Below, piece by piece: positions 1,573 through 44,432 of a stretch of 57,134 bases of DNA. A model generated the notes under the pieces. That model did not search any database. It was not told the origin of the DNA and saw only the letters and a program-made list of their open reading frames with translations. Source of the DNA: Phycisphaerales bacterium (GTDB lineage Bacteria; Planctomycetota; Phycisphaerae; Sedimentisphaerales; Anaerobacaceae); assembly GCA_003141315.1 (NCBI GenBank), contig PLLP01000010.1:22709-79842 (forward strand), given 5' to 3'. Each line of letters opens with the position of its first letter. Positions within the stretch are counted from its first letter, which is position 1. The position numbers and the translations under genes were made by a program.

Positions 1573-3870
1573 ATGGAAACTATGACCGGAATAATCTTCA
1601 TTTTTTCATTACTATTGTCGCTGTCAGCCGAACCAGCCAGCTTGCCGGCGGCACAGGATATAAACAATGTGTCAGCGGAGGCGAAACTTGCGTACGATGG
1701 TTTCCTCCGGGATAGCTACGCACTGCGGCTCGAATACGAATTTGCAGGCAGATTTTCCGGGGACGAACACAGGTCAAAAATGCGGCAGTTTGCAGAGCAG
1801 GCAAACGAAAAAATAACGGCAATCGAGACGAAGCAGAGAGAACTCAAGAAGCAGATTGAGGATTACCAGGGTAGCGACTGGGAACAGAAATTCGGCTCGA
1901 CCGGCCTGTGGCGAAAACTAACGGCGGATGTGCATTTTACCTCTGTGAGCAATTGCCAAATCTCTTTTTATCTGGCAATTTCACAAACGGATAAAAAAAT
2001 ACGAGTCGAGATTCTCAAGGCAGCATTAGATAAAATCGAGGGTTTCGAGAAATCGGACAGCCGGCCCGCTGCTGAAGAAATTTTTCTGAAGGCGAGGATT
2101 CTCGGAACGCTTGCCGCTGATGACCTGCTTTACAGGCCGCCGGCAAGAGAAGAGTTCGAATCCGCCATCGGCAAAGAAAAAACCGGCGAAAAAAAATGTT
2201 CCGGTTACCGGCTCATCTTCGAAGAAATCAAACTTTTGGGTCCGGCGGACGAAGGGCAATTGAAAACGCTCGCCAGACAATTTTTTATAAGCCCGTGCAA
2301 AGATGATTTGGAGTTGGTCTTATCTCTCGCGGGTCTGCAATACCGGCTCGGCAAAAAGGACGCATTCGAGGAGACTGTTCGCAAAAATCCCCGGGCGCAG
2401 GATATTATCGGTTCGTTTCTGCTCGCAGGATTGCTTCAGCAGAAGGCCGATGAAAATTCTTTCGAAAGCACGACTGTCTTCGAGGCGGAACTTACCGCCA
2501 AAAGAGCATTAAAAGAAGGGGCAGCAAAATACAGCGAACTTTTACTGAAACTGGCCGATGAATTTCAGACCCCGATAGTTTTTTATGCCGCCGCCCAGGC
2601 CTTCGCGGATAGCTCGCCGGAGAAGACGATTGATTTTCTCATACAAAGCAGCATTCTGCAAAACCGGAAAAAAAGTGAATGGCTCGACGCCGACGCAAAT
2701 ACGATAGCGGGCCAGGCTGCGAGGTTTGCCCTCGACCGGTCAGGCAAACACAAGACCGATTGCGGGCTTATAATAAAGGCCTGCGAAAATTATCGTTCGA
2801 TTGCCGCGGGAAATACCGAGCCGAAGCTCGATTATCTCTACGCAGAGGCCGTCTTAAATTGCGGGCAAAATGAAAATGGCGAAGCAATACTCCAAGGCCT
2901 GGCCAAAAGAGACGCCGGTTTCTGGTCAGCGCGTGCGAAATTAGACCTGATTGAGAAAAAAATAAACGCCGCGAAAACCCAAAAACAACCTGTTTCCGAT
3001 TCGGCAATTTCGGAACTTAACAATTTTATTTCTGAAAATTCCGTTCCCGATGAATGGGCAAAACGGCTTGGCGGCGAGGCAGCAGCCGTCTATTGTCAGG
3101 CACTAATCGAGGCGGCAGACAAGCAATCGCTTGAAAAAATAGTAAGCATTATAGATGTAAATAAAATAAATTATGAGCCGAATTTGGGTGCATTTAAATC
3201 CGCCGCTCTTCAAAAGCTGGATAGACCCGCTGAATCCGCCAAATGGCTTCTTGCGGCGTTCAGGCCCAGCCGCTGCGAACACGCGCCGCAGGCAACCGCC
3301 CTGCTTACGGAAACCGTCGGGAAAATTGATTATCTAAAAGAGCAATCGGCAGATTTTGCGGAAACTGCCGCTGTCTTTGAAAAGCTGGCGACAGAATGCT
3401 GTAATTGTGCCGATTCGGCAGGCAATCCCTCTGCGGCGGACCTACGGCAGGTGAAACTGCTCCGGGCAGAATTTGCTATCTTTGCGGCAGCAAAAGAACC
3501 AACTAAATTAGAAAAAATTGAAAAACTTCTTAATAGTATCGAGCCGGACAATGGCGTTTCGAATGTTGACCTGCTTCGCTGCCGTGCGAGACTTTTTGCT
3601 GAACAGAAAAAATTCCAGCAGGCTGCACAGCTCTGGTCGCAAATCTGCGGTATGGAAGAATCAGGCGACCCCGCATCAAAACAAAGAAGTGAACGGTGGT
3701 GGCGGGCAAAATATTATGAACTCTACTGCTGGTCGCAAATACCGCAGACAAACAAGAAAGACACAGCTCATACGATAGACGTGCTGGGAAAAACTTATGA
3801 CCAGAAGCCCGACTTCTGGTGGAAAAAACTCGATTCGCTGAAACAAACAATTCCAAAAAATAGCCGCTAA
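1573..3870 (+). CDS. Large secreted/periplasmic helical-repeat (TPR-like) protein, function unknown
   Basis: 765 residues. The first 25 or so residues form a signal peptide (hydrophobic IIFIFSLLLSLS then a small-residue cleavage region). The remainder is almost entirely charged, alanine/leucine-rich helices with repeated A-x-x-L-A type spacing such as AQLWSQICGM and AKWLLAAFRP, which fits TPR-like solenoids; no catalytic motif is visible. ATG 1573 and ATG 1582 are both possible starts. It lies directly after the ExbD-like gene, so a role as a periplasmic partner of that proton-driven complex is a reasonable inference, not shown. Planctomycetes often place TPR proteins next to ExbD genes. Confidence 0.7.
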   Translation: METMTGIIFIFSLLLSLSAEPASLPAAQDINNVSAEAKLAYDGFLRDSYALRLEYEFAGRFSGDEHRSKMRQFAEQANEKITAIETKQRELKKQIEDYQGSDWEQKFGSTGLWRKLTADVHFTSVSNCQISFYLAISQTDKKIRVEILKAALDKIEGFEKSDSRPAAEEIFLKARILGTLAADDLLYRPPAREEFESAIGKEKTGEKKCSGYRLIFEEIKLLGPADEGQLKTLARQFFISPCKDDLELVLSLAGLQYRLGKKDAFEETVRKNPRAQDIIGSFLLAGLLQQKADENSFESTTVFEAELTAKRALKEGAAKYSELLLKLADEFQTPIVFYAAAQAFADSSPEKTIDFLIQSSILQNRKKSEWLDADANTIAGQAARFALDRSGKHKTDCGLIIKACENYRSIAAGNTEPKLDYLYAEAVLNCGQNENGEAILQGLAKRDAGFWSARAKLDLIEKKINAAKTQKQPVSDSAISELNNFISENSVPDEWAKRLGGEAAAVYCQALIEAADKQSLEKIVSIIDVNKINYEPNLGAFKSAALQKLDRPAESAKWLLAAFRPSRCEHAPQATALLTETVGKIDYLKEQSADFAETAAVFEKLATECCNCADSAGNPSAADLRQVKLLRAEFAIFAAAKEPTKLEKIEKLLNSIEPDNGVSNVDLLRCRARLFAEQKKFQQAAQLWSQICGMEESGDPASKQRSERWWRAKYYELYCWSQIPQTNKKDTAHTIDVLGKTYDQKPDFWWKKLDSLKQTIPKNSR

Positions 3871-40641: not shown

Positions 40642-40672
40642 CCCTGCCATAGTGATGGCAGGGCTAACCAAA
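40642..40672. repeat. Single hairpin with CTAACCAA tail (relative of the 42815 array)
   Basis: CCCTGCCAT (40642-40650) and ATGGCAGGG (40655-40663) form a perfect 9-base stem with loop AGTG; CTAACCAAA follows directly. This is the same stem-plus-CTAA(A/C)CAA layout as in the array on the other side of the DUF3644/HEPN genes. Confidence 0.65.
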
Positions 40673-40813
40673 TGTTAAGATTGACAAAAAGACTCGGCTG
40701 GTAGAAAATGGGGGAAATTAGACACTGATGGACACGGATAAACGCGGATTGACACGGATTCTTTTTATAAATACTAACGACTAAAAACTAACGACTAATT
40801 TTAGCCACTGATT

Positions 40814-40836
40814 CCTTCGACAGGCTCAGGACAGGT
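40814..40836. repeat. TTCGACAGGCTCAGGACAGG-type dispersed repeat
   Basis: The word CCTTCGACAGGCTCAGGACA appears inside a CACTGATT...ACGCGGATT repeat, apparently splitting it. A related copy (on the other strand, CTTCGACAAGCTCAGGGCTG) is in frame in the gene at 45392-45784. Confidence 0.6.
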
Positions 40837-40888
40837 AACGCGGATTGACACAGATTAAAATAGACTCAAGACTCCAGACTCAAGACTA

Positions 40889-40903
40889 TCCGCCGCAGGC
40901 GGA
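40889..40903. repeat. TCCGCC/GGCGGA palindrome, intergenic copy
   Basis: TCCGCC-GCA-GGCGGA, perfect arms, about 110 bases before the DUF3644 gene. Confidence 0.65.
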
Positions 40904-41017
40904 ACAGAAAAGAATTTAGCCGTTGAAAAATGGATTAGGTTTGGGTAGAATTGGGAAACAAGAAAAAAGAGGAATTATGGCATGATGATGAAAAACGTAG
41001 TTTAGTGGAGGAAAAAA

Positions 41018-42079
41018 TTGAAAGGATTACCAAGAAATGTAAAAGAATCCCTGCAGAAAGCACGTGATTCAGCATTGCTTGGAGTAGAGGTGTATAACAA
41101 ACCAGCCGTAACTTTTAAGTCAGGTGGTTATATTACCTTGATGGTTATCGCGTGGACATCATTGTTTCATGCAATCTTCTTCCGCCGACGCATAAGGCCT
41201 TACTATAGAAAGAAGAACGGCCGTTGGTTCGAAAAAATTGAAGGAGATTACCGGCACTGGGAGTTGGACGAATGTTTAAGGCAATACTACGGTAACGATA
41301 CACAAAACCCAGTGAGCTTAAACTTGGAATTCTTTAGGATCCTTCGAAATAAGATAGAACATAGATCTCTGCCAGAAATTGACAGTAGCATATTTGGTGA
41401 ATGCCAAGCATTATTATTGAATTTTGATAATATGATGGAAAAGGAGTTTGGTCCTAAGCACTGCATTCGCCAGTTGCTGTCTTTCGCTCTCCAGATTTAT
41501 CCATCTTCGGAAAATCTTGCTGAAGCGGTAAAGAAAAATCCCACTGTAAAATCTGCGGCTCAATTTATTCACAAATACAGGTCATCATTGTCTGCAGACA
41601 TTTATCAAAGTGGCCAATATGCTTTCAAGGCTTTTCTCATTCAGGTGGCAAACCACCCATCTCAAGACGCCCTAGCTATTCAATTTTTTAATTATGATAA
41701 ATTAACCCCTGAACAGAAAAAGATTATCGCCCCTCTTGTTGCTATGGTGAAATACAAACAGCCGTCAGTAGCAAACGTTGATACCTTATCTGCAGGGGAA
41801 GTGGTGAAACGGGTTCAAAAGGAACTCGGAAACCTGAAGGTCCAAAGGGGAGGAATACAACGTGACAAATTTACTTTTGACTGGCATGTGAGGTGTTGGA
41901 AAAAGTTTAAAGTGCGTCCGGACAAGAAAAGTCAAAATCCTGAACATACTGATACGAAATATTGCATTTATGATGTGCGTCATCAAGATTATGGATACAC
42001 ACAAGCGTGGGTAGATTTACTTGTAAAAACATTTGGCGAAGAAAAGGCATACAATGAACTATACCCGAAGAGGGCCTGA
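41018..42079 (+). CDS. DUF3644 domain protein
   Basis: 353 residues. The N-terminal half matches my recollection of DUF3644: ALLGVEVYNKPAVTFKSGGY, AWTSLFHAIFF, the charged loop around EGDYRHWELDECL, and NLEFFRILRNKIEHRSLPE. This RxxxEH-like helix in an alpha-helical fold is reminiscent of HEPN-type RNases, though that is inference. TTG 41018 is the start: GGAGG at 41007-41011 lies 6 bases ahead and no ATG fits. The C-terminal part (residues 230-353) looks like a separate basic, possibly nucleic-acid-binding domain. It is A+T-rich, next to a HEPN-like gene and hairpin repeats. DUF3644 genes are often found in defence-type neighbourhoods. Confidence 0.75.
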   Translation: MKGLPRNVKESLQKARDSALLGVEVYNKPAVTFKSGGYITLMVIAWTSLFHAIFFRRRIRPYYRKKNGRWFEKIEGDYRHWELDECLRQYYGNDTQNPVSLNLEFFRILRNKIEHRSLPEIDSSIFGECQALLLNFDNMMEKEFGPKHCIRQLLSFALQIYPSSENLAEAVKKNPTVKSAAQFIHKYRSSLSADIYQSGQYAFKAFLIQVANHPSQDALAIQFFNYDKLTPEQKKIIAPLVAMVKYKQPSVANVDTLSAGEVVKRVQKELGNLKVQRGGIQRDKFTFDWHVRCWKKFKVRPDKKSQNPEHTDTKYCIYDVRHQDYGYTQAWVDLLVKTFGEEKAYNELYPKRA

Positions 42080-42150
42080 TTGATAAAACAACAATGACAA
42101 TGGTTACAGTATACTCGCCACCGGTGAGGTTGACATTGTGTGGAAAATAT

Positions 42151-42765
42151 ATGAAAGATAGCCAGAAGACCAAAGCAACCGAAGTAGAGGATGATATTTT
42201 TAACTTACCGCCGCAAGAGATCTTCGATAAAGTTGGAAATGATTGGCATTTCTGGTTATCAAAAACAGATGCTTTATTATCGGCTTCTGAATTGTTGAAT
42301 ATTAATTGTGGTAATCCTCCGAAACTGACAGACGAACCAAGGGATAGGGATTATAAAAAGGCATGGGATTATATAAAAATCCATATGGTAGTAAGGATGT
42401 TACGAGGAATGGCGGTTGAATGTTTGCTGAAAGCTATTTGGTTAAAGAAAGGTGGTACTTTGGCTCATAAAGGAAATTACCGCACCATTCCCGGTACAAA
42501 AGATCACGATCTGTATTTACTTGCTACAAAAGTGTCAGAGAGTACTGCGTTAGGTCTAACGGTAGAGGAAATGAAAATTTTATCGCGGTTATCTTATGCA
42601 ATTACGTCTGGACGATATCCTATACAAAAATCGGTAACGGGTCGAAAACCATCAACACCAAAGATGGATGGAAGAATAAGATGGCACAAGTGGGAAATAC
42701 CGAAAGATGATGAAATGTTTGAATCTATTGTTGGTAAATTGATGTCTTCATTTGATGGGGAATAA
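42151..42765 (+). CDS. HEPN-like helical protein, function unknown
   Basis: 204 residues. The centre VRMLRGMAVECLLKAIWLKK resembles the amphipathic helix pair seen in HEPN/AbiV-type proteins (xxAVExxLKA), followed by KDHDLYLLATKVSESTALGL, also typical of that group's second half. I cannot identify a definite RxxxxH catalytic motif. ATG 42151 with GGAAA about 7 bases ahead is preferred; ATG 42094 adds 19 residues and has no ribosome site. It begins 71 bases after the DUF3644 gene, in the same A+T-rich island and direction, so the two are probably cotranscribed. A defence or toxin role is possible but unproven. Confidence 0.65.
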   Translation: MKDSQKTKATEVEDDIFNLPPQEIFDKVGNDWHFWLSKTDALLSASELLNINCGNPPKLTDEPRDRDYKKAWDYIKIHMVVRMLRGMAVECLLKAIWLKKGGTLAHKGNYRTIPGTKDHDLYLLATKVSESTALGLTVEEMKILSRLSYAITSGRYPIQKSVTGRKPSTPKMDGRIRWHKWEIPKDDEMFESIVGKLMSSFDGE

Positions 42766-42814
42766 CTAGGACAGATAACTCAAAAGATAAAATCCGTGGA
42801 AATCGGTGTCGAAC

Positions 42815-43118
42815 AGCAACCCCCTTATGAATAAGGGGGCTATATACAACAACATATACCCCCAACATAAAGTTGGGGGCTAAACAAAAAAGCAACCGCC
42901 TTATAATCCGTCTTCGTTTTCACTTCGACGCGACAGGCACGCCGAGTGCGGACGAAACGAACAGATAAACCGCCGCAATAATATCCCCGCACCGCTGGGG
43001 TGCGGGCTAAACAAACCGTTGTCGTGCCGACAACGGCTAAACAACCCCGAAGCAAGCTTCGGGGCTAAACAAAAAGCAACCCCCTTATAAATAAGGGGGC
43101 TATATATAAAAGCAACAG
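42815..43118. repeat. Tandem array of hairpins with different stems and a common CTAAACAA-type tail
   Basis: Six clear hairpins: 42820-42839 (CCCCCTTAT/ATAAGGGGG), 42859-42879 (CCCCCAAC/GTTGGGGG), 42986-43006 (CCCGCACC/GGTGCGGG), 43016-43036 (CCGTTGTCG/CGACAACGG), 43045-43064 (CCCCGAAGC/GCTTCGGGG), 43080-43099 (CCCCCTTAT/ATAAGGGGG), plus a degenerate one at about 42913-42961. Each is followed directly by CTAAACAA or CTATATA, then often AAAAGCAAC. The stems differ in sequence but all pair perfectly. No T-run follows, so they are not ordinary terminators. The array lies between the HEPN-like gene and the tandem paralogues. Confidence 0.9.
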
Positions 43119-43254
43119 GATGGGTTAAAAAAATTCTCTTTTTTGGTTGATTGTTTGGGAAAATGGGTATATAAGCATAGCAGGTTAAGCCGCTAATGGC
43201 GGATGTGTCAGGAATAATACCAGGAACAATTAGCTCAATTAGGAGGTGCAAGGA

Positions 43255-43647
43255 ATGAACTGGGGAACCATCAAAAAGGGCGAGGTAAAAAAATCAGATA
43301 AGGTCGTCGAATTAAGGCCTGGCGAAAGCGGTTTCGATTCTTCGGCTGAGCCGCAGGGGCAGCAGGCAGCAGAAACCACGCAGAGAACCGAAGACCTCGA
43401 CAGCGGTATGGAATTATTGGAGCTGGATTTTCTGCTGGGGATTATCGAAAGCACCGAAGGCGAGGACAAAAATGACGTTATGATGCGGAAACTCTGCTTC
43501 AACGAGGTAATTCGCAGAAGCCAGCAGAACGAAATGGACAGCTTCGCATTGAAGGTGTATTCAATCAACGACAATAACCTTTACGGCAAGGATATTCAGT
43601 GCCATGCGATGAAGGAATTGGCGCTGAGAACCGAGCACAAAAAATAA
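43255..43647 (+). CDS. Unrecognised soluble protein, paralogue of the next gene
   Basis: 130 residues. A charged, low-complexity N-terminus (EPQGQQAAETTQ) precedes a conserved domain of about 80 residues: SGMELLELDFLLGIIEST, MMRKLCFNEVIRR, FALKVYSINDNNLYGKDIQC, KELALRTEH. The same domain ends the next gene's product with roughly 40-45 percent identity by eye. I recognise no known family. ATG 43255 has AGGAGGT (43241-43247) 7 bases ahead, which settles the start against GTG 43246. It is just downstream of the hairpin array. Confidence 0.75.
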   Translation: MNWGTIKKGEVKKSDKVVELRPGESGFDSSAEPQGQQAAETTQRTEDLDSGMELLELDFLLGIIESTEGEDKNDVMMRKLCFNEVIRRSQQNEMDSFALKVYSINDNNLYGKDIQCHAMKELALRTEHKK

Positions 43648-43778
43648 TCCTGAAGCGTATAATTTGTCGTTTTGCGGGTATTGATTTGCCGATAACACTA
43701 TTGTAAGCCGCGGTCTGCGTATCAGATAGCGGGTGCGGAAAAAGTGTTGTTCGTATCGGCAATGTTGGGGTCGCATTA

Positions 43779-44432
43779 ATGTATATCCCGCAAGCAATCC
43801 TCCACACAGATGGCGGACAAGTGCTCGCTTCAAGCGCCGTCAGCGGCGACCAGAACTTCTGGGTGACAATCCTGATGATTGTGATGCTCTTCAGCGGCGT
43901 CGGCCTGTGGACGATGATAAAGAAAAAACCAAACGGAGGCAATCGCCAGGATGAAGATGCCGAACCCTTCCCGGCTATTCAGGCCACGACTAATCAGCAT
44001 ATAAAAGCGGATGCTGCTCTCGAATCGCTGGTGGAGAATCCGGACTTGCGCGTTGCGCAGGCGGAGAAAATTCTTATCCGCTATTCTAAAGGCCGGCGCA
44101 GAAAATTCTCCGACCTCAAAAGCGGGCTTGAGCTGCTCGAGCTGCCTTTTTTGGCAGGCGTTGCGAGCGATACCGGCAGCAGAAGCAAGCTGGATATCGA
44201 GATGCGAAAAATCGCTTTTACCGAACTTGCCCGCAGGGAAAGGCTCGGCGATATTGAGAGCAAAGTGTTGAAGGTTTATGCCAGGAATACTGAAAACACC
44301 TTCGGCAAGACAATTCAATGCCAGGCTATCAAAGAGTTGGCCATCCGGACCGAAAATGAAAAACACGAACCATCGGTGGTGATTGTTACGAAAAAAGCCG
44401 AACCAGCGGAATCGCCGGCTGTCACCGTATAA
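43779..44432 (+). CDS. Unrecognised membrane-anchored protein, paralogue of the previous gene
   Basis: 217 residues. An N-terminal exported stretch precedes one membrane helix (FWVTILMIVMLFSGVGLWTM) near residues 27-47, then a linker and the same domain as the previous gene: SGLELLELPFLAGVASDT, EMRKIAFTELARRERLGDIE, VLKVYARNTENTFGKTIQC, KELAIRTEN. The pair looks like an old duplication giving a soluble and a membrane-bound form. No function is evident. The start may alternatively be GTG/TTG a little upstream; ATG 43779 gives a sensible topology. A GAF protein follows 308 bases later. Confidence 0.75.
   Translation: MYIPQAILHTDGGQVLASSAVSGDQNFWVTILMIVMLFSGVGLWTMIKKKPNGGNRQDEDAEPFPAIQATTNQHIKADAALESLVENPDLRVAQAEKILIRYSKGRRRKFSDLKSGLELLELPFLAGVASDTGSRSKLDIEMRKIAFTELARRERLGDIESKVLKVYARNTENTFGKTIQCQAIKELAIRTENEKHEPSVVIVTKKAEPAESPAVTV

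Follow-up and report, generated by a model that had tools for sequence, protein, structure and literature searches.

TTAG-footed REPs of Planctomycetota form same-orientation arrays of mixed types and are tied to two RAYT lineages

The feet of published REPs are either CGTC or GTAG, the latter degenerate chiefly in its second and third bases (PMC3733652). GTAG REPs and their RAYTs (REPtrons), such as E. coli TnpAREP (4er8) and the systems of Pseudomonas and Stenotrophomonas, combine a short intergenic palindrome that bears an unpaired foot at one end and occurs in many copies and several types per genome, with Y1/HUH RAYT genes that are flanked by their cognate palindromes and coevolve with them. 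The last two foot bases of GTAG REPs are thought to pick the CT cleavage site, and the only REPs whose recognition by RAYTs has been tested in experiments are GTAG-footed ones from a few Gammaproteobacteria (PMC8266576). In most published genomes, head-tail REP pairs are absent or rare and inverted pairs (HH or TT) dominate. Among the RAYTs of other kinds, class 3, which occurs in Planctomycetes and others, has a CnGA foot, and subclass 2.6 is associated with atypical structures (PMC6006769). Our search of the open-access literature found no description of TTAG-footed REPs.

The elements described here share the above features of GTAG REPtrons but differ from them in position 1 of the foot, which is T and not G (TTAG), and in the mixing of types within one six-unit array. 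They are short palindromes (∼20 to 40 bp) that bear an unpaired foot and are scattered mostly between genes, as REPs are defined, while the two hallmarks of the GTAG REP superfamily, a GTAG or GT[AG]G foot and an arrangement mostly in inverted pairs, are both absent. With class 3 and subclass 2.6 of TnpAY1 they have in common genes that are flanked by hairpins without a GT[AG]G foot and copies elsewhere, and class 3 likewise occurs in Planctomycetes; compared by motifs, however, class 3 has CnGA and the Y motif YV[VI]xEQ where we find TTAG and, in our type A, Y[IV]xxNP, and subclass 2.6 is mostly from Bacteroidetes and has weak structures (PMC6006769). CGTC-tagged REPs (PMC3733652) resemble the present ones in their tagged palindrome with a stem of 8 to 9 bp and a loop of 4 to 5 bases, but they differ in their foot and in having no linked transposase gene, whereas the link to a transposase is strong here. 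REPINs (PMC3116915) are also RAYT-associated miniature mobile palindromes with known tandem clusters, but they are inverted REP pairs, whereas TTAG units are single or head-tail. TTAG-footed REPs of Planctomycetota with their same-orientation mixed arrays represent an unusual form of a familiar kind of element, and they have ties to two RAYT lineages.

The array lies in a window of 57 kb (the whole stretch of DNA that was analyzed). An earlier note on this DNA had described it as a tandem series of perfect hairpins with stems of 8 to 9 bp and a conserved tail, and this observation is real: six such hairpins lie at 42820-43099, followed directly on their 3′ side by CTAAACAA (four units) or CTATATA (two units), in short form CTAAAC and CTATAT, and AAAAGCAAC occurs three times, at 42888, 43072, and 43108. 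Read on the minus strand, each unit consists of a TTAG (four units) or ATAG (two units) foot, a C-rich hairpin, and TT, and all five neighboring pairs have the same orientation. REP 1 (42820-42847, minus strand; R1, 29.7 bits) has the foot ATAG (CTAT at 42840-42843 of the plus strand) and the hairpin CCCCCTTA-ttca-TAAGGGGG at 42820-42839. It is followed on the same strand by four units with the foot TTAG, namely, REP 2 (42859-42887; hairpin CCCCCAAC-tttat-GTTGGGGG at 42859-42879; 41 bits with the covariance model described below), REP 3 (42986-43014; CCCGCACC-ccagc-GGTGCGGG at 42986-43006; 37 bits), REP 4 (43016-43044; CCGTTGTCG-gca-CGACAACGG at 43016-43036), and REP 5 (43045-43072; CCCCGAAG-cttg-CTTCGGGG at 43045-43064). 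REP 6 (43080-43107, minus strand; hairpin CCCCCTTA-ttta-TAAGGGGG at 43080-43099) again has ATAG and was found, like REP 5, by both the hairpin search and the covariance model. A degenerate seventh unit had also been proposed; the interval that holds this hairpin (∼42897-42975) is noted here, but the covariance model of the REP family gives no match to it. The rest of the window contains nine further hairpins with a stem of at least 8 bp and a short loop, one of which (40642-40663) has an array-type tail, CTAACC. This solitary REP (40642-40671, minus strand, foot TTAG, hairpin CCCTGCCAT-cact-ATGGCAGGG) scores 28 bits with the covariance model.

We measured the dispersal of these units by searches and in sampled stretches, which covered ∼0.8 Mb of the own genome (G000) plus the window and 0.4 Mb of a relative. 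One 400-kb sample of the own genome has 176 ends of perfect hairpins, 14 of which adjoin CTAAA, the commonest five-base neighbor, against ∼0.1 expected; hairpin and tail are thus associated across the genome and not by chance. Recurring stem types are, for example, CCGTCGCCG-tgc-CGGCGACGG, CCCCCTTA-taaa-TAAGGGGG, CCCGCACC-gcagg-GGTGCGGG, and CCCCACGT-gaa-ACGTGGGG, and on the other strand the general form of a unit is NNNTTAG-CC...GG-TT. Among 47 copies, the T, A, and G of the foot are near-invariant and conservation tapers off within ∼8 bases on either side; a CT cleavage dinucleotide beside the units was in weak excess at no more than two offsets (present in 9 and in 10 of the 47 copies, against ∼3 expected) and was not counted as evidence. 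The covariance model was built from 21 units in a loop-padded alignment, given that direct alignment with MAFFT misplaces gaps when loop lengths differ. The pattern is not unique to one genome, as matches to the model occur in at least 31 of 41 genomes, with at least 44 in the own genome and up to at least 125 in a single genome, where 150 candidates were scored per genome and all counts are lower bounds. Six of the 8 stem positions vary among the 21 aligned units, always on both sides and without G-U pairs, although perfect pairing is partly built in because the model hairpins were chosen for perfect stems. These two-sided changes support, but do not prove, selection for pairing. Within REP types, too, a change in one arm of the stem goes with a matching change in the other.

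In the two 400-kb samples, 38 of 46 REPs are intergenic according to a crude gene call, compared with ∼12% expected. All 10 close REP pairs in the samples have the same orientation which, together with the 5 pairs of the window, gives 15/15 (P = 6 × 10^-5 if the pairs are independent); inverted REP pairs are found mainly across RAYT genes. The density of REPs is uneven, with 29 matches in 400 kb of contig C12 of G000, nearly all of them in its first 270 kb, and 2 in 398 kb of contigs C10 and C16. A mixed or contaminated bin was rejected as a simple explanation, since composition is alike across contigs. Contig C12 also shows a sharp switch of the GC skew from negative to positive at ∼88 to 90 kb, and the orientation of the REPs reverses together with the skew, in ∼19 of 21 clusters according to a count by eye; as for a replication origin at this switch, dnaA is located elsewhere. 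Some TTAG REPs contain other palindromes (TCCGCC...GGCGGA and similar) within their loops, as if inserted (G000 C12:263181-263241 and 244858-244899; G014 C1:378296-378360).

A linked Y1/HUH gene, for which the earlier note had proposed to look, was found with strong linkage in the own genome and in relatives. Genes matching Y1_Tnp (PF01797) occur in 33 of the 41 genomes, among them the own genome with three matches. The match on contig C9 is a 191-amino-acid RAYT-like protein (positions 1700-2275 of locus L055, minus strand; referred to here as type A) whose gene is flanked by TTAG hairpins. The TAA stop codon of this gene forms part of the CTAA that follows the hairpin CCGTTGTCG-tgc-CGACAACGG, and this hairpin has the stem of 43016-43036 in the window. 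GTTTAGC hairpins also mark the ends of type-A homologs from relatives and from named Planctomycetota MAGs, with homologs as distant as 38% identity among them. When non-redundant loci were counted, TTAG hairpins were present within 260 bp of the open reading frame (ORF) end at 10 of 11 type-A loci (a count in which TAG and the palindrome may be separated by one unpaired base), with a density of 4.86 per kb near the ends versus 0.09 far from them and the foot TTAG in 31/31. Type-B proteins (∼150 amino acids), which are common in the relatives, have TTAG-CCCC... hairpins at the ends of their genes, within 200 bp of the ORF end at 19 of 21 loci, with a density of 4.14 versus 0.07 per kb and the foot TTAG in 40/40; their upstream and downstream hairpins usually face each other, with the feet toward the gene. 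Near RAYT gene ends, the foot is thus TTAG in all 71 cases, and hairpin density is ∼50 times that farther off. TTAG hairpins were found at none of six loci of type C, a third RAYT-like lineage of 177 amino acids (G000 C10:175920-176453, minus strand; positions 2921-3454 of locus L056), and gene L056 has inverted copies of another palindrome, TCAGAGCCGCGAACNTNAGTGAGCGGTAA, on its flanks instead. A Y1_Tnp match of the own genome lies inside a 1,359-amino-acid open frame (C14:9003-9182, minus strand), and similar long frames exist in G007, G019, and G023. Classic IS200-like proteins of the relatives (L023 to L034) were not retained as candidate partners, with 6 of 10 loci lacking a TAG hairpin; they sit on very long tree branches, and their placement was not used.

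Across genomes, the median number of REP matches is 34 in those with a type-A or type-B RAYT and 1 in those without (P = 3 × 10^-6), and the presence of such a RAYT is associated with at least 10 REP matches (Fisher P = 1 × 10^-4), both P values being too small because related genomes are not independent. No intact type-B RAYT was found in the own genome (assembly ∼97% complete), and therefore most array units are without a partner in this assembly; the type-B REPs of the window look like orphans in their own genome. In type-B relatives from further orders and classes of Planctomycetota, TTAG is sometimes kept (L184 and L185) and sometimes replaced by other feet, so that the foot itself varies over longer distances.

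In type A, the HUH motif, the catalytic Tyr, and NP are invariant, within the motifs DH[IV]H, WK, and Y[IV]xxNP, and the corresponding motifs in most proteins of type B are NH[VI]H and Y[VI]xx[HQ]. Against the NCBIfam model for REP-associated tyrosine transposases (NF047646), type A scores 40.4 bits, below the cutoff of 80, and by this measure it is a divergent relative. A structure model of type A, based on six sequences, has a mean pLDDT of 71, with 82 to 96 in most blocks of the catalytic half and low confidence in the N-terminal region (residues 16 to 56). Among solved structures, it is most similar to the complex of TnpAREP with a REP hairpin (4er8; E = 2.7 × 10^-6), followed by IS200-family transposases, and a sequence profile search likewise matched 4er8 (E = 9 × 10^-4) and IS200-family structures. 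Type A is assigned to the Y1 transposases by PF01797, by H-x-H and Tyr, and by its fold match to 4er8 and IS200, and the motifs are present in type B as well.

The linkage to RAYTs bears on why the stems differ. The earlier note had called the stems unrelated and proposed that one system reads the structure whatever the stem. The stem types do differ, but they are not wholly unrelated, as each starts with CC and finishes with GG; the first and last hairpins of the array have one identical stem (CCCCCTTA/TAAGGGGG). Besides REP 4, whose stem is shared with the type-A gene L055, most other units of the window correspond to hairpins of type-B genes: the tttat loop of REP 2 is the loop at L100, L103, and L104, the REP 5 stem CCCCGAAG also flanks L121, and the stem CCCTGCCAT of the solitary REP also flanks L102 and L106. 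REP 3 (CCCGCACC-ccagc) resembles, but is not identical to, CCCCCACC-cctgt at L124, and the ttta loop of REP 6 at L120 is likewise a resemblance and not an identity. The type-B RAYTs form one clade (support, 99/98), and the loop/stem class of their REPs follows the RAYT tree, with 5 changes compared with a shuffled mean of 13.4 and none of 200 shuffles reaching 5, in a test that was not blind, since the classes were assigned visually from the flanking sequences once a first tree was known. Given that units of the window match RAYT ends of different lineages and that the class follows the tree, the array is best read as a mix of REP types from different RAYT lineages, each unit type resembling the hairpins of a different one, and this mixing is the main reason why its stems differ. 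The proposal of a single system that is indifferent to the stem is not borne out, while the other lead of the note, to single-strand transposition sites with a REP layout of foot plus hairpin on the minus strand, pointed in the right direction.

The genomic context of the array helps to weigh other explanations. It lies between two genes on the plus strand without a Pfam match, one of 223 amino acids on its 5′ side (42094-42765) and one of 133 amino acids on its 3′ side (43246-43647). The latter is the first of two adjacent paralogs (133 and 217 amino acids; 43246-44432; the second also without a Pfam match) that are kept side by side in several relatives. No TAG-hairpin or REP array was found upstream of the orthologs of 43246-43647 in seven relatives, four of which (G004, G005, G014, and G022) are rich in TTAG REPs elsewhere, and a shared TATATAA-like element precedes the ortholog in most of the seven. 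The absence of hairpins there indicates that the array is not an ancestral regulatory part, or other ancestral feature, of this locus. The solitary REP and the array (40642-43118) flank two genes, 41018-42079 (DUF3644) and 42094-42765, and the block that they bracket was perhaps acquired.

The same absence argues against the processed RNA that the earlier note had offered as an alternative and, more generally, makes it improbable that the hairpins are an RNA element and not mobile DNA, acting in a transcript by being processed, by stabilizing an mRNA, or as intrinsic terminators on the minus strand. An RNA element would fit the strong folding of the array on both strands (42800-43140; z = −7.3 on the plus and −8.7 on the minus strand relative to dinucleotide-preserving shuffles) and the five terminator-like sites (GC-rich hairpin plus T tract) of the minus strand, compared with 1.0 ± 1.0 in shuffles. 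However, terminators would oppose the flanking genes, have no need of a TTAG foot 5′ of each hairpin, and leave the RAYT linkage unexplained, and the two-sided stem changes without G-U pairs in the 21 aligned units, limited as this point is by the selection for perfect stems, speak in the same direction. At gathering thresholds, the only known RNA families in the window are two tRNAs. A secondary effect on RNA is nevertheless plausible, as published REPs can alter mRNA stability and termination (PMC6006769, PMC3733652). Passive tandem duplication, in which a single hairpin spread by slippage and its stems drifted with compensation and without a transposase, would account for the common orientation of the units, the abutting of some, and the stem shared by two, but these two CCCCCTTA units are the only copy-like ones, and the different stem types are also found as single units, both scattered over the own genome and next to the RAYT genes of other genera. 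The array units therefore have separate origins, and we consider duplication very improbable. Hardly any credence can be given to the possibility that the hairpins are ends of full IS200/IS605-type transposons or integron attC-like sites: the proteins do belong to the Y1 superfamily of IS200 transposases, and both systems use single-stranded hairpins, but no transposase gene lies within or next to the array, most hairpins are single and gene-free, an attC layout was not seen, and the RAYTs are proteins of 150 to 190 amino acids, with an NP-type Y motif in type A as in class 2 and unlike the NQ of IS200 (classes as in PMC6006769).

The array is thus very probably a cluster of six REPs that are, or formerly were, processed by RAYTs (Y1/HUH) as non-autonomous mobile sequences. 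From what is known of studied relatives, we infer that TTAG REPs undergo single-strand cleavage and transposition. The RAYT would bind the REP as a folded single strand in which TTAG takes the role of the GTAG guide, and the last two guide bases (AG) would pair with the CT dinucleotide that is cut; given that TTAG retains the last two bases of the GTAG foot, the same mechanism of CT choice may operate. The REP unit would then be moved or copied to other intergenic sites. REPs of several RAYT lineages would have landed together in one orientation, type A giving rise to 43016-43036 and several type-B classes to the others. A more tentative idea, which we regard as possible but rather doubtful, is that TTAG REPs of several RAYT lineages insert directionally, guided by the site and adjoining one another, such that a REP already in place serves, by its foot or hairpin, as the target of the next insertion, even across lineages, and head-tail mixed arrays arise at one intergenic site.

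The natural change of a single base at position 1 of the foot, together with loop/stem classes that covary with the RAYT tree, represents a natural experiment on the bases of foot and loop that are read by the enzyme. Moreover, the same-orientation mixed arrays differ from the inverted-pair layout of REPINs, the supposed moving unit, and so bear on the identity of the unit that moves.
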